Positions 3-33,264 of a DNA stretch of 39,185 nt are shown piece after piece (position 1 is the stretch's first letter; every line of letters begins with the position of its first letter). Made by a program: the position numbers and the translations under genes. The stretch is from Candidatus Parcubacteria bacterium. Lineage in GTDB: Bacteria > Patescibacteriota > Minisyncoccia > UBA6257 > 2-01-FULL-56-20. Location: positions 67,390 to 106,574 of the forward strand of contig DAIEHA010000001.1 in NCBI GenBank assembly GCA_027355945.1, in the 5' to 3' direction. The notes under the pieces were generated by a model. The model was not told where the DNA came from. It worked only from the letters and a program-made list of their open reading frames with translations, and made no database searches.

Positions 3-1727
3 GAGCCCGATGCGAGGATCGTCATCGTGGTACCGCGCAGTTCGGCGATCGTGCGTTCGATGAGCAATTTCCGGCTTTTGAAGCGGGAGGCTGATGCGGC
101 GGGAAAGGATGTGGCGGTGGAATCGGTTGATGAAACGGTACTTGCGTTCGCCAAAGAGAACGCGATCCCTGCTTCGCATCCTCTGTGGCGGGGGGTGAGG
201 GCGGAAAATGATGATATGGATAAAGGGATGTCCGATATCGTTCCGAAATCGAGGAGCGTTGTCCCGGAGATTTTGAAAAAGAAGAGGCGCGGCCAGGAGG
301 CGGAGTTCGAAAATGAGGAGGAGGGAATGACGGAGGATTCTGACGAAGGGGAGGAGGAAAGGGAGGAAGAGGAAACGAACGAAAGGAAGCCTTCAAAGGG
401 ACGGCGTCCCGTCATGGCGATCCGCGAAGAGGAGGAAAAGGAGGAGGAATCGATGGAGGAAGAGGAGGAGGCGATGTTCTCGGCCCCCAAAGGCCGCAAT
501 TCTTTCGGCAGCGGGAACGGGTCCCGCGGAAGGCGGCCGTTCGGCGACGATGATGACAATGATGATGACAATGGTCCGCGAAAGGGCATTGGCGGAAAGG
601 TATGGAGCACCATTATTGTGGTCATCCTTCTTTTCCTCGGCGGCGCCTATGTGGCGGGCGCCTATTTCGATCGTGCGAACATCTCCATCACGTTTAAAAA
701 GACCCCATGGACATGGCAGGGAAACCTCACCGTCGATAAATCCGTACCGTCGGATGACCTTGCGAACGGCGTCGTTGCGGGACAGGTGTTCACGTCCGAT
801 AAGAACGTGACGGATACATTCAAGGCATCGGGCCAGCAGAACGTCTCTCTCAAGGCGAAGGGAACGATCACCATCTATAACGATTACAGCACGAAGCCGC
901 AGGATCTCATCGCCACTACGAGGTTCCTCACCCCTGACGGAAAGATATTCCGCATCACGAACAACGTCACCGTGCCCGGTGCGACGAAGACCGCGTCAGG
1001 CGCGCTCACCCCTTCGTCCATCACGGCACCGATCGTGGCAGATCAGGCGGGCCCAGCCTATGACATAGGTCCCGTGGCGAAGCTCACCATCCCGGGCTTC
1101 CAGGGTAAGCCGCAGGAGAGCGGGTTCTGGGGTGCGATCACGGCATCCACGACGGGAGGCTTCACCGGCATGCGCGCGGTACCGACCGCAGGGGACGTCG
1201 CCGCGGCGCAGGCGAGCACCACCGCCGATCTCCAGGCGAGCCTTCAAGGGGGATTCAGCGGAAGCTATCCTAACAATTTCAAGATCCTCGATGGGGCGAC
1301 GCAGATCAGCATGGGTAAGCTTATGGTGAACACGACGACGGATGCCCAAGGGAATTTCACGGTATTCGCAACCGCAACGCTCTCTGCGATAGGGTTCGAC
1401 GAAACGGCGCTCAAAACGGCGCTTCTTGGTGCAGCACAAGGGACCGAGCAGAGTTCGACGTTCGCGGATATCAGTCTCACGTATGGCGCGGTTTCGGCGA
1501 ATTTCCCGAAGGGCCAGGTATCATTCTCCCTTTCGGCCCAAGGCGATCTCGAGCCGGCGTTCTCCACGGTCACGTTCGAACAGCAGATACTCGGCAAGGA
1601 TACTGCGGTGGCGCGCACCGCCATTGCGGGACTTCCCCAGCTTTCGAACGCGGAAATCTCCGTATGGCCGGTATGGTTGAGCACCGTTCCCTCGGATCCC
1701 TCGAGGGTGCATATCACCGTGAACTAG
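3..1727 (+). CDS. Membrane-anchored hypothetical protein, 5' partial: acidic low-complexity N-terminal region, one TM helix, extracytoplasmic beta-rich region (Parcubacteria-type conserved hypothetical)
   Basis: The frame stays open upstream of the track's GTG at 27 (EPDARIVIVVPRSSAIVRSMSNF...), so the true start lies outside the window. Acidic stretch, then TM VWSTIIVVILLFLGGAYVAGAYF. Confidence 0.75.
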   Translation, partial: EPDARIVIVVPRSSAIVRSMSNFRLLKREADAAGKDVAVESVDETVLAFAKENAIPASHPLWRGVRAENDDMDKGMSDIVPKSRSVVPEILKKKRRGQEAEFENEEEGMTEDSDEGEEEREEEETNERKPSKGRRPVMAIREEEEKEEESMEEEEEAMFSAPKGRNSFGSGNGSRGRRPFGDDDDNDDDNGPRKGIGGKVWSTIIVVILLFLGGAYVAGAYFDRANISITFKKTPWTWQGNLTVDKSVPSDDLANGVVAGQVFTSDKNVTDTFKASGQQNVSLKAKGTITIYNDYSTKPQDLIATTRFLTPDGKIFRITNNVTVPGATKTASGALTPSSITAPIVADQAGPAYDIGPVAKLTIPGFQGKPQESGFWGAITASTTGGFTGMRAVPTAGDVAAAQASTTADLQASLQGGFSGSYPNNFKILDGATQISMGKLMVNTTTDAQGNFTVFATATLSAIGFDETALKTALLGAAQGTEQSSTFADISLTYGAVSANFPKGQVSFSLSAQGDLEPAFSTVTFEQQILGKDTAVARTAIAGLPQLSNAEISVWPVWLSTVPSDPSRVHITVN

Positions 1728-29225: not shown

Positions 29226-29711
29226 ATGAAACCGATCACCATCCTCAAGGTACTGGTCTTCGTGCTTGCGGCCATCATCATCGTCCTTCTTGGCGCGCTC
29301 TTCTTCTATAATCCCGCAAAGGCGCCTTCGGGAGGGCCGAGCGGGTCCGCTGCACCCGTCACCATTGCTACGGGAGACGGCACGCTCGCGGTATCGCCCT
29401 CCTCTCTCCAGCCTGATATGGCCGTCACATCGCCCCTCTCCCTCGAGGGGGTGGTGAGGGGCGGCGGATGGTTCTTCGAGGGGACGTTCCCGATAGAGAT
29501 CGTCGATGCGAACGGTATGGTGATCGGATCGACGACCGCACGCGCCGAAGGCGATTGGATGACGACGGGCACTGTAGCCTGGACCGCCGTGCTCGCATTC
29601 ACACCGCCCGCTTACAGCACGTCGGGACTCCTGCTTTTCAAGAACGACAACCCATCCGGCAGCACGTCGACCGTGCGGCTTCTCCAGGTTCCGATACGAT
29701 TCCCGCAATAA
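29226..29711 (+). CDS. Anchored protein with Gmad2-like immunoglobulin domain
   Basis: N-terminal TM; SPLSLEGVVRGGGWFFEGTFPIEIVDANGMVIGSTTARAEGDWMT...FTPPAYSTSGLLLFKNDNPSG. Confidence 0.8.
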   Translation: MKPITILKVLVFVLAAIIIVLLGALFFYNPAKAPSGGPSGSAAPVTIATGDGTLAVSPSSLQPDMAVTSPLSLEGVVRGGGWFFEGTFPIEIVDANGMVIGSTTARAEGDWMTTGTVAWTAVLAFTPPAYSTSGLLLFKNDNPSGSTSTVRLLQVPIRFPQ

Positions 29712-29729
29712 CAGGAAGGATCAAGGATC

Positions 29730-30272
29730 ATGAGTTTTGAAAGGACCGCCCCGATCGAGGGCAACGATAAAGAGGATTCCGCCGGAGGATTCGACGTCGA
29801 TTTTTCATTTGAAAGCGATATTTCCGCACCGGTCGAGGCGATGGACAAAGTGGCTCGCTGCATGCGGGATCTTAATTGGCCCGAGGATGAGACGGATGCC
29901 TTTACGGGTGCCGTGAAAGAGGCTGTTACGAACGCAGTGGTGCACAGCAATCTCGACATCCGTCACGAGGAGGGAGAGGATGTTGAGACGTATACCCGTC
30001 GGATCCGTGAGGCGTCAGGAGGGGATTCGGGAAGGAAGAAGGTGGAGGTGACCGTTGAGGCGCGCATGAACGATATCGTGGTGAAGGTGAAGGATGAAGG
30101 AACCTATGTGATGGAGATCGATACGCACGACGATCCCACGTCGTCGGGCCGGCTCTATCTTCCCCACGGCAGGGAGCAGTTCCTCATATTCAGCGGATGC
30201 GACGAGGTCATGTCATACCCCGGGGAGGTCGTGCTTATCAAGCATCGCGGCGGCGCGCAGGAAGGAGCGTGA
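29730..30272 (+). CDS. RsbW/SpoIIAB-like HATPase (anti-sigma-factor kinase family)
   Basis: GAVKEAVTNAVVHSN N-box and VKVKDEGTYV G-box. Confidence 0.8.
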   Translation: MSFERTAPIEGNDKEDSAGGFDVDFSFESDISAPVEAMDKVARCMRDLNWPEDETDAFTGAVKEAVTNAVVHSNLDIRHEEGEDVETYTRRIREASGGDSGRKKVEVTVEARMNDIVVKVKDEGTYVMEIDTHDDPTSSGRLYLPHGREQFLIFSGCDEVMSYPGEVVLIKHRGGAQEGA

Positions 30273-30825
30273 AGTTGTATCGTCTGGCGCTCCATACGGG
30301 ACCGGCATACTCGACCCCTATCCGTTTTGATGCGACGATCCGCGGCGTTTCGCGCCCAGGAAGCAGGGGATGCGATTCAAACCAGACGCCGTTCTTTCTT
30401 TGTGCGGCAAGGCCGTTCATGCGGCCGGTGACGCCGAGATAGCGGGCGAGGAGTCCGGGGCCTTTGATGGCGTCCGTTGCTGCCGCATCGCGGGAGGGTC
30501 CTTGTTCAGGCATGCCGGCACGGAGGAGTACCGCAGCGGGATAATGTTCGGGCCCCGTGACGACGTTCACCATCCAGTGCATGCCGTATACGAGATAGAC
30601 GTAGAATGCGCCGGGAGGTCCGAACATGGGGCGATTGCGGGGCGTGAGGCCCCGGCTCGCATGCGATGCGCGGTCCTGCGGACCATCGTAGGCCTCCGTT
30701 TCGGTGATCATGAGCACGCGGCGGTCGCCGGGCAGGAGGTCGCTCACGATCAAGGCGCCAAGGAGTTCCCGGGCCACCTCCGTTGTTGGCCTATCGAAGA
30801 ATGAACGGGGCAATATCGTTCCCAT
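30238..30825 (-). CDS. mpg: 3-methyladenine DNA glycosylase (AAG/MPG family)
   Basis: FFDRPTTEVARELLGALIV...ITETEAYDGPQDRASHASRGLTPRNRPMFGPPGAFYVYLVYGMHWMVNVVTG; ATG (complement of CAT 30823-30825). Confidence 0.95.
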   Translation of the reverse strand: MGTILPRSFFDRPTTEVARELLGALIVSDLLPGDRRVLMITETEAYDGPQDRASHASRGLTPRNRPMFGPPGAFYVYLVYGMHWMVNVVTGPEHYPAAVLLRAGMPEQGPSRDAAATDAIKGPGLLARYLGVTGRMNGLAAQRKNGVWFESHPLLPGRETPRIVASKRIGVEYAGPVWSARRYNFTLLPARRRDA

Positions 30826-30835
30826 GGTATTTTTG

Positions 30836-30843
30836 ATTATAAT
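30836..30843. promoter_or_regulatory. Palindromic shared -10 element ATTATAAT between mpg and nth
   Basis: TATAAT on + at 30838-30843 and on - at 30841-30836; 9 nt to the nth ATG, 10 nt to the mpg ATG. Confidence 0.7.
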
Positions 30844-30852
30844 GGAAGCACC

Positions 30853-31509
30853 ATGATCAAGGAACAGGATCTTCCCCGTCTTCGCGCGCGTTGGCGCACG
30901 ATCGCGCGGGTGCTCGGCACGCTCTTTCCGCATGCCACGATCGCACTTCGATTTTCCAACGAGTGGGAGCTTCTCGTGGCGGTGCAGCTCTCCGCGCAAT
31001 GTACGGACAAGAAGGTGAATGAGATCACCCCCGCGCTGTTCGCGCGATATCCGGATCTCGAGGCCTATGTGCGTGCGGGCAAGACGCCCGCGGGGATCCG
31101 CGAGTTCGAGAGGATGATAAAGCCGAGCGGGTTCTATCGCGCGAAGGCGCACAATATCCTCGCGGCCGCGAAATACGTAAAGGAGGAATGCCACGGCAGG
31201 CTTCCACGCACGATGGAGGGGATGGTGGCGATCCCGGGGATCGGAAGGAAATCCGCAAACGTCATTCTCGGGAATGCGTACGGGATAGTGGAGGGTATCG
31301 CGGTGGATACCCACGTGATGCGTCTTGCCAGGGTGCTGGGACTTACGGACGAACGCACGCCGGAAAAAATCGAACGCGATCTTATGAGGATCGTTCCCCG
31401 CAAGGACTGGTTCAATGCCACCTATATGCTCATCGACTACGGAAGGAAGTATTGCCATGCCCGCCGGCACGATCACGCGCACTGCCCGCTCACGGCCGTG
31501 TGCGCATAG
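30853..31509 (+). CDS. nth: Endonuclease III family DNA glycosylase/AP lyase
   Basis: AVQLSAQCTDKKVNEITPALF; IPGIGRKSANVILGNAYG; VDTHVMRLARVLGL. Confidence 0.95.
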   Translation: MIKEQDLPRLRARWRTIARVLGTLFPHATIALRFSNEWELLVAVQLSAQCTDKKVNEITPALFARYPDLEAYVRAGKTPAGIREFERMIKPSGFYRAKAHNILAAAKYVKEECHGRLPRTMEGMVAIPGIGRKSANVILGNAYGIVEGIAVDTHVMRLARVLGLTDERTPEKIERDLMRIVPRKDWFNATYMLIDYGRKYCHARRHDHAHCPLTAVCA

Positions 31510-31593
31510 GGCGCCGCCGTCCTGCACGTCCCTGCACGTGCACTGTGGAAAAGACCTCCTTGCAACTTCGCGCGGGCATGAGAGAATGGAGAT

Positions 31594-33264
31594 ATGCTTT
31601 CTGATGAGATACGGACGTTCTTTCATGGAGACGTGGCGGATGATGATGCCACGCTCGGGAAATACAGCAGGGATTATTCCCTGTTCAAAGTGAGGCCCGA
31701 AGTGGTCGTGTTCCCGAAAGACGCGGATGACATAAAGGCGCTCGTGAAGTTCGTTGCCGAAAAGAAGGCCGCGGGGGAGGATATCTCCCTTACCGGACGA
31801 TCCGCGGGTACGGATATGACGGGGGGACCCCTTAACCGAAGCATCATTGTTTCGTTCACGAAATATTTCAATCATATCCTCGAGATAGACAAGGTGGGGA
31901 TGGAAGCCCGCGTGGAGCCAGGCGTGTATTTCCGTGATTTCGAGAAGGCGCTCACGGATCAAGGACTTCTCTATCCTGCATTTCCGGCATCAAAGGATCT
32001 CTGCGCGCTCGGCGGCATGGTGAACAACAATTCAGGCGGAGAAAAGACGCTCGCATACGGCAAGACCGAGGATTATGTGAAGGCGTTGAACATCGTGATG
32101 GCGGACGGGGAGCAGCACACGCTCTGGCCGCTTTCGGGAGAGGCGCTCGAAGCGAAGCTCCAGGAGGAGAATTTCGAGGGCGAGATCTTTCGCAAGCTGA
32201 AAAAGCTCATTGATGACAACTATGACGCGATCAAAGCAGCGAAGCCCAACGTATCAAAGAATTCCGCGGGATATTATCTTTGGAACGTGTGGGACCGTGC
32301 GACGGGCGTGTTCGACATCACGAAGGTGATCGTAGGGTCGCAGGGGACGTTCGGAATGCTTACCGAGGCGAAGTTGAAACTCGTGCCGCTCAAGAAACAT
32401 TCCCGCATGTGCGTCGTGTTCCTCAAGGACCTCGGACCCGTGGGCGATCTCGTGCAGGCGGTCCTGCCGTTCGGTCCGGAGAGCATCGAATCATATGACG
32501 ACCGCACCGTGGAGGTGGCAGTAAGGCTGTGGCGCCAGGTGATCCGTTCCATGAAAGGCAATGTGATATCGCTCGGATTCCAGTTCCTGCCGGAGATGTG
32601 GATGGTGCTTCGGGGCGGGATGCCGAAGATGATCATGCTGGTGGAGCTCACGGGCGACGATGAGAAGGAGCTCGTCGGGAAGCTCGACGCGCTTGCGGCC
32701 GTCGTGAGGAAGTTCGCGAGGACCCATCACGGCATTCAGGTGCTTCCGCTGCGCAACGAGAAGGATGAACAGAAATATTGGACCATCCGCCGCCAAAGTT
32801 TCGCGCTCCTCCATAACAACACGACCGGCCTCGATACCGCGCCGTTCATCGACGATTTCATCGTGAAGCCGGAGTACATGCCGGAGGTGCTCCCCAAAGT
32901 GAACGCGATACTCCAGAAGTACAAGGACGATCTCATCTATACCATCGCGGGCCATCCCGGGAACGGTAATTTCCATATCATCCCGCTCATGAATCTGAAA
33001 GAGGAGCGGGTTCGTGCGCTCATCCCGAAAATCTCAGAGGAGGTGTACAAGCTCGTATTCCAATACCACGGTTCGATCACCGCAGAACACAATGACGGCC
33101 TCATCAGGACGCCGTATCTCGAGAGTATGTACGGACCGGAGATCGAGCGGCTTTTCGTGGAGGTGAAGAGGATCTTCGATCCCGAAGGGATCTTCAATCC
33201 CGGGAAGAAGGTGGGAGGGGATCTTGCATATAGCGAGGCGCATATTGCCGCAACGGGTTCGTGA
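31594..33264 (+). CDS. FAD-binding oxidoreductase, GlcD/D-lactate dehydrogenase type
   Basis: VRPEVVVFPKDADDIKALVKF; TGRSAGTDMTGGPLN; LGGMVNNNSGGEKTLAYG; HPGNGNFHIIPL. Confidence 0.88.
   Translation: MLSDEIRTFFHGDVADDDATLGKYSRDYSLFKVRPEVVVFPKDADDIKALVKFVAEKKAAGEDISLTGRSAGTDMTGGPLNRSIIVSFTKYFNHILEIDKVGMEARVEPGVYFRDFEKALTDQGLLYPAFPASKDLCALGGMVNNNSGGEKTLAYGKTEDYVKALNIVMADGEQHTLWPLSGEALEAKLQEENFEGEIFRKLKKLIDDNYDAIKAAKPNVSKNSAGYYLWNVWDRATGVFDITKVIVGSQGTFGMLTEAKLKLVPLKKHSRMCVVFLKDLGPVGDLVQAVLPFGPESIESYDDRTVEVAVRLWRQVIRSMKGNVISLGFQFLPEMWMVLRGGMPKMIMLVELTGDDEKELVGKLDALAAVVRKFARTHHGIQVLPLRNEKDEQKYWTIRRQSFALLHNNTTGLDTAPFIDDFIVKPEYMPEVLPKVNAILQKYKDDLIYTIAGHPGNGNFHIIPLMNLKEERVRALIPKISEEVYKLVFQYHGSITAEHNDGLIRTPYLESMYGPEIERLFVEVKRIFDPEGIFNPGKKVGGDLAYSEAHIAATGS

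Follow-up and report, generated by a model that had tools for sequence, protein, structure and literature searches.

Bidirectional promoters of the kind described by Warman and Grainger are built around shared, near-symmetric -10 elements, and the class is defined by divergent transcription start sites (TSSs) lying 7-25 bp apart (PMC10268837, PMC12825309), with a T at -18 as a further feature (PMC10268837). In E. coli, the preferred distances between the two TSSs are 18, 10, and 23 bp, and five such promoters exhibit no competition at basal strength (PMC12825309). The class has so far been defined from TSS maps of relatively few cultured organisms, and our literature search returned no TSS studies of the lineage considered here.

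The divergent DNA glycosylase genes mpg and nth analyzed below are separated by a spacer whose core looks like a compact, doubly leaderless form of this known class. As in the Warman/Grainger promoters, the two -10s overlap, with -11A and -7T present on both strands within ATTATAAT; the predicted TSSs are separated by 21-22 bp, within the 7-25 bp range; and, counting from those predicted starts, there is a T at -18 in both directions (T at 30832 on the plus strand; A at 30846-30847, i.e., a minus-strand T), all of this between divergent mRNA genes. Unlike that class, both mRNAs are predicted to be leaderless, the core and its discriminators fill the entire 27-bp spacer, there is no -35 element in either direction, and the perfect dyad adopts a 21-bp register rather than the common 18-bp one. 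This register is outside the distances preferred in E. coli, which argues against a bidirectional reading. On balance, we favor, with a probability of roughly 0.8, the interpretation that ATTATAAT serves as a sigma-70-type bidirectional housekeeping promoter core for two leaderless or nearly leaderless mRNAs.

The second point of comparison is leaderless expression, which is common in Deinococcus-Thermus (PMC12340547) and in mycobacteria (PMC3898074). Leaderless genes in these groups have a -10 close to the start codon, as at mpg/nth, where leaderless mRNAs are predicted, and the M. tuberculosis genes likewise have no conserved -35 (PMC12340547, PMC3898074). The mpg/nth arrangement differs in that one -10 would serve two opposite ORFs, and in that the consensus elsewhere in its genome is a full TATAAT, often with a TGn extension. 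The M. tuberculosis pair prpD/Rv1129c also consists of adjacent divergent genes that are both leaderless (a prediction in the case of mpg/nth); its starts have been mapped by TSS data, and the available part of the report describes no shared palindromic -10 for it (PMC3898074).

The mpg-nth Locus and Its Shared -10 Core

The window, i.e., the whole stretch of 39,185 nt that was analyzed (G000, contig C11, positions 67390-106574), comes from a 735-kb genome. The features of the locus are collected in Table 1.

Table 1. Features of the mpg-nth spacer and flanking genes, in window coordinates.
Feature	Position	Strand	Basis or remark
mpg, 3-methyladenine (methylpurine) DNA glycosylase, 195 aa	30238..30825	-	PF02245 and relatives
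mpg start codon, CAT (minus-strand ATG, A at 30825)	30823..30825	-	
Whole mpg-nth intergenic spacer, 27 bp start codon to start codon	30826..30852		
Predicted mpg TSS: A, 8 nt past -10; leader ACC-AUG or leaderless	30828	-	Predicted from spacing
mpg -10 box TATAAT, 10 nt before ATG	30836..30841	-	Sequence and relatives
Perfect dyad ATTATAAT, shared -10 core	30836..30843		Kept as ATTATAAT or ATTATATAAT in relatives
nth -10 box TATAAT, 9 nt before ATG	30838..30843	+	Genome-wide TATAAT peak
Predicted nth TSS: A, 7 nt past -10; leader ACC-AUG or leaderless	30850	+	Predicted from spacing
nth start codon, ATG	30853..30855	+	
nth, endonuclease III-like DNA glycosylase, 218 aa	30853..31509	+	PF00730 and Endonuclease III structures

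On re-reading the sequence, the gene coordinates, gap, palindrome position, and two spacers given in an earlier note on this DNA all proved exact, and its naming of both genes as glycosylases is borne out by Pfam: the mpg product matches PF02245 (Pur_DNA_glyco, E=3.8e-49) and the nth product PF00730 (HhH-GPD, E=9.9e-19), with Endonuclease III as the best solved relative of the latter (E=3e-37). Both starts are anchored by relatives, among which the Mpg N-terminus MGTILPRSFF is kept from Met1 on and Met1 of Nth is conserved. Our gene caller gives only plus-strand genes (2224-39099 listed), in agreement with the note's description of mpg as the sole clear minus-strand gene; mpg itself received no call and rests on Pfam and relatives.

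The dyad occurs once in the window, as compared with 0.14 occurrences expected from dinucleotide shuffles (at least one in 12 of 100), and at 8 sites across the genome. When the 27-bp spacer is itself shuffled, ATTATAAT arises in 0.18% of cases, and 0.025% of the shuffles place a TATAAT on each strand at 6-10 nt from its start codon. A chance origin of the symmetric core is unlikely. A consensus scan found no -35 match for the core in either direction, and the TGn extension is absent beside the -10 both ways. A GGAAG ahead of nth falls inside the discriminator and is absent in two relatives (G015 and G028), and no Shine-Dalgarno sequence is conserved in the leader.

Leaderless Promoter Geometry across the Genome

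Genome background was taken from 368 kb in stretches of the same genome (313 genes, GC 58%), with genes called by a home-made, simple coding-potential caller whose start positions are imperfect. In this set, TATAAT and variants with one mismatch are concentrated 6-9 nt upstream of start codons, and Shine-Dalgarno-like sites are found upstream of ~10% of genes. Because the TATAAT peak is so close to the ATG and Shine-Dalgarno sites are so rare, leaderless starts are, as judged from sequence, the general rule and the ordinary mode in this genome. The nth spacing falls within the 6-9 nt mode, and that of mpg is at its edge. When 103 leaderless promoters are aligned, TATAAT stands out strongly and is preceded by a TGn extension (T 56%, G 62%), whereas hardly any -35 signal is visible; the joint TGn is seen in 45 of 91 promoters whose spacing is 6-10 nt. 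Opposing boxes that match 5/6 or better are present in 27/90 leaderless promoters of the genome, and a perfect dyad in 2/90 others.

Against this background, the leaderless expression proposed in the earlier note is sound, and the sequence geometry supports its symmetric -10 as placed for divergent transcripts that are leaderless or carry a ~3-nt leader. The refinement that we would add is that a 6-7 nt discriminator puts the predicted starts at ~30850 and ~30828, each with a 3-nt ACC leader, a mpg start at 30829 or 30830 also being possible.

A frequent promoter form in this genome, TGA-TATAAT, comes close to symmetry as well, with TATCAT as its opposing box in the 23-bp register, and for this reason many of its leaderless promoters may also fire backwards. 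The genome also holds a second very compact divergent pair (L076; contig C11, 37806-38831). Its 29-bp spacer carries separate -10s, TAAAAT and TATAGT, which stand back to back without overlapping, 7 nt from the respective ATGs; in contrast to the mpg/nth layout, neither box is shared.

Conservation of the Core among Relatives

Separate searches for Mpg and for Nth covered 244 genomes of the order, and pairs were found by intersecting coordinates. Compact divergent mpg/nth pairs, with 25-27 bp between start codons, occur only in the window's family: in G000, G003, and G006, which belong to one genus, and in G015 and G028, from two further genera. A further Mpg search of the genome contigs returned only the known adjacent pairs and one distant one. 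Overlapping -10 boxes are present in every one of the five compact pairs, and perfect dyads in four of them. The 21-bp register of ATTATAAT is found in G000, G003, and G015; the 23-bp register is represented by ATTATATAAT in G006 and, in degenerate form, by TATATT/TACAAT sharing TA in G028. The mpg box stands 8-9 nt from its ATG in G003, G006, and G015, and the flanks of the dyad are not symmetric between relatives. Conservation of the core is far above that of neutral sites: between G000 and G003, identity is complete over 20 bp around the core, as compared with 60-63% at the fourfold-degenerate sites of both genes, and between G000 and G015 the 8-bp dyad is intact, with 31-33% identity at such sites. 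The earlier note stated that divergent relatives lacking the palindrome would refute its proposal; the alignment across relatives finds the symmetry conserved where the pair is kept.

Partnered nth genes were compared with the 16 nth genes of the family that have a good -10 and no adjacent mpg. An opposing box with a match of 5/6 or better accompanies 5/5 partnered as against 2/16 unpartnered nth genes (Fisher 0.001), and a perfect one 4/5 as against 0/16 (Fisher 0.0008), values that overstate independence because the partnered set comprises only five genomes from three genera, uncorrected for phylogeny. Within the genus of G000, one genome (G001) has no mpg and retains the order Gmad2-like, HATPase-like, nth, FAD-oxidase seen in the window, with nth directly after the HATPase gene (52 bp gap). 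Its core reads GTTATAAT, in which the nth box is intact, still 9 nt before nth, and the critical -7T of the mpg box is gone. G001 is one natural case, and it fits what selection acting on each half separately predicts.

Elsewhere, mpg/nth spacing is looser (~105 bp in G012; ~0.7-1.1 kb in G014, G024, and G032). The G012 spacer (L184) holds a long inverted repeat, AGGATTAGAT...ATCTAATCCT, separating the two starts; TATAAT is kept there for nth, and no clear box is seen for mpg.

Recurrence at Unrelated Gene Pairs

The 244 genomes were also searched for CAT-7..10-ATTATAAT-7..10-ATG, which yielded 55 sites in 43 of them. Within the family, the corresponding pattern matches 11/38 genomes, as compared with none for a backward control. 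Bare counts of this pattern were dropped as evidence, as most matches are one-sided gene starts (dnaB, grpE, ftsQ-like), and it is for this reason that ORFs of at least 70 aa were demanded on both sides. Among the matches listed, at least 11 sites are two-sided in this sense, three of them mpg/nth pairs. The others include pgk/NDH-like, secD/unknown, rnhB/dnaE, pth/gatB, lepA/parB, and ppsA-like/unknown, together with a pilB-like/transglycosylase (mrc/pilB) pair in two genomes. Pfam matches were obtained for 9/10 scanned members of recurrent pairs; gatB, lepA, and ppsA were identified by eye from their sequences. The reversed palindrome TAATATTA gave 21 matches in 19 genomes, 4 of them two-sided, a control that embeds -10s in other registers and is therefore not neutral, so that the excess of ATTATAAT over it is suggestive only; we claim recurrence, and not a measured enrichment. 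In the two genomes with the transglycosylase/pilB-like pair (L236 in G044, L238 in G161), ATTATAAT is kept although the flanking spacer differs.

The earlier note had presented the element as a regulatory device of a repair gene pair. With identical geometry at unrelated housekeeping pairs in the order, the repair-specific part of that idea is not borne out, and we rejected repair-specific co-regulation as a general explanation. Because the same core recurs between such unrelated genes, the shared core most likely reflects genome compaction, and not a repair switch.

Alternative Explanations

One competing account is that TATAAT acts as a promoter for nth alone, the opposing half being the ordinary near-symmetry of a -10 and mpg being transcribed from a promoter inside nth. 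Strong opposing boxes do arise by chance or inherent symmetry, as the 27/90 figure above attests, and the 10-nt mpg spacing is long for this genome. Perfect symmetry, however, separates the partnered nth genes from both the unpartnered ones and the genome's other leaderless promoters (4/5 vs. 0/16 and 2/90); the mpg box precedes its ATG by 8-10 nt in four genomes and is lost in G001, where mpg is absent; and a consensus scan of 29700-31700 found no promoter-like site. We regard a one-way promoter as unlikely. A perfect dyad in the middle of a divergent spacer is also a classic position for an operator, and the palindrome could bind a dimeric repressor or activator of both genes. The dyad, however, alternates between ATTATAAT and ATTATATAAT, shifting its half-sites by 2 bp and yet preserving both -10s, and it has asymmetric flanks among relatives and turns up at unrelated gene pairs, which makes an operator extremely improbable.

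The remaining alternative concerns nth, which might be expressed mainly from transcripts of the upstream plus-strand operon (Gmad2-HATPase) that read on across mpg in the antisense direction, with the shared -10 playing a secondary role. Plus-strand genes do flank the pair, the G001 nth directly follows the HATPase gene, and the sole plus-strand terminator-like match within 30272-30853 is weak (30807-30822, 5 pairs). Against a main role for read-through, G001 retains its TATAAT, and about a dozen nth genes of the family have TATAAT 6-12 nt upstream whatever the neighbor; we consider it very unlikely. Some read-through into nth may occur, and the earlier note's suggestion of the core as the pair's only promoter is not supported.

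Proposed Mechanism and Implications

In the bidirectional reading that we prefer, a sigma-70-type RNA polymerase could bind the 8-bp dyad in either orientation, reading TATAAT on the facing strand. RNA would start on opposite strands, ~21-22 bp apart, either at the start codon or no more than ~3 nt from it, so that both mRNAs would be leaderless or nearly so, and the symmetry of the core would be kept because both genes need it. We infer the TSSs, the activity in both directions, and the promoter strength from the sequence. The core is predicted to be weak since it has neither a -35 match nor an extended -10 in either direction. In the 21-bp register, moreover, TGn is barred, because its G would have to take the place of the A paired with the -7T of the other direction, and sharing the core should therefore cost strength. 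The expected output of this minimal spacer would be low, unregulated expression, about equal for the two base-excision-repair glycosylases.

The earlier note's "mutually exclusive" transcription holds up in the steric sense, as opposing polymerases would physically exclude one another. As working regulation it is not supported, given the E. coli promoters without competition at basal strength and the predicted weakness of this core: little mutual repression would be expected, and weak expression without a toggle seems likelier than a mutual-exclusion switch.

More broadly, it is about an even bet that compaction and leaderless translation have repeatedly given rise, in this order of Patescibacteria, to "zero-leader" divergent pairs, in which a single palindromic -10 would be the entire intergenic regulation, selected as a shared element (hence one-sided decay upon loss of a partner) and setting coupled low-level expression. 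Here, conservation alone gives evidence of selection on -10 symmetry on both sides, including the natural partner loss in G001. The locus suggests that a divergent promoter can shrink to 25-27 bp between start codons when its mRNAs need no leader, exposes a trade-off in that a 21-bp shared core forbids TGn extension, and offers a simple signature by which reduced genomes of uncultured organisms can be searched.

Additional Features of the Region

The 3' ends of mpg and the HATPase-domain gene (29730-30272) overlap tail-to-tail by 35 bp (30238-30272). In this Nth family, the Fe-S ligands are degenerate: the second of endonuclease III's four Cys is a His (conserved C-x4-H-x-H-x2-C), and the fourth cysteine is missing in relatives, so that the 4Fe-4S cluster has probably been lost or altered. 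Farther upstream, a predicted protein at 27266-28336 matches the catalytic domain of carboxysome shell carbonic anhydrase (PF20686, E=4.4e-9), an odd match for such a genome; relatives carry a PF20686-type protein too.
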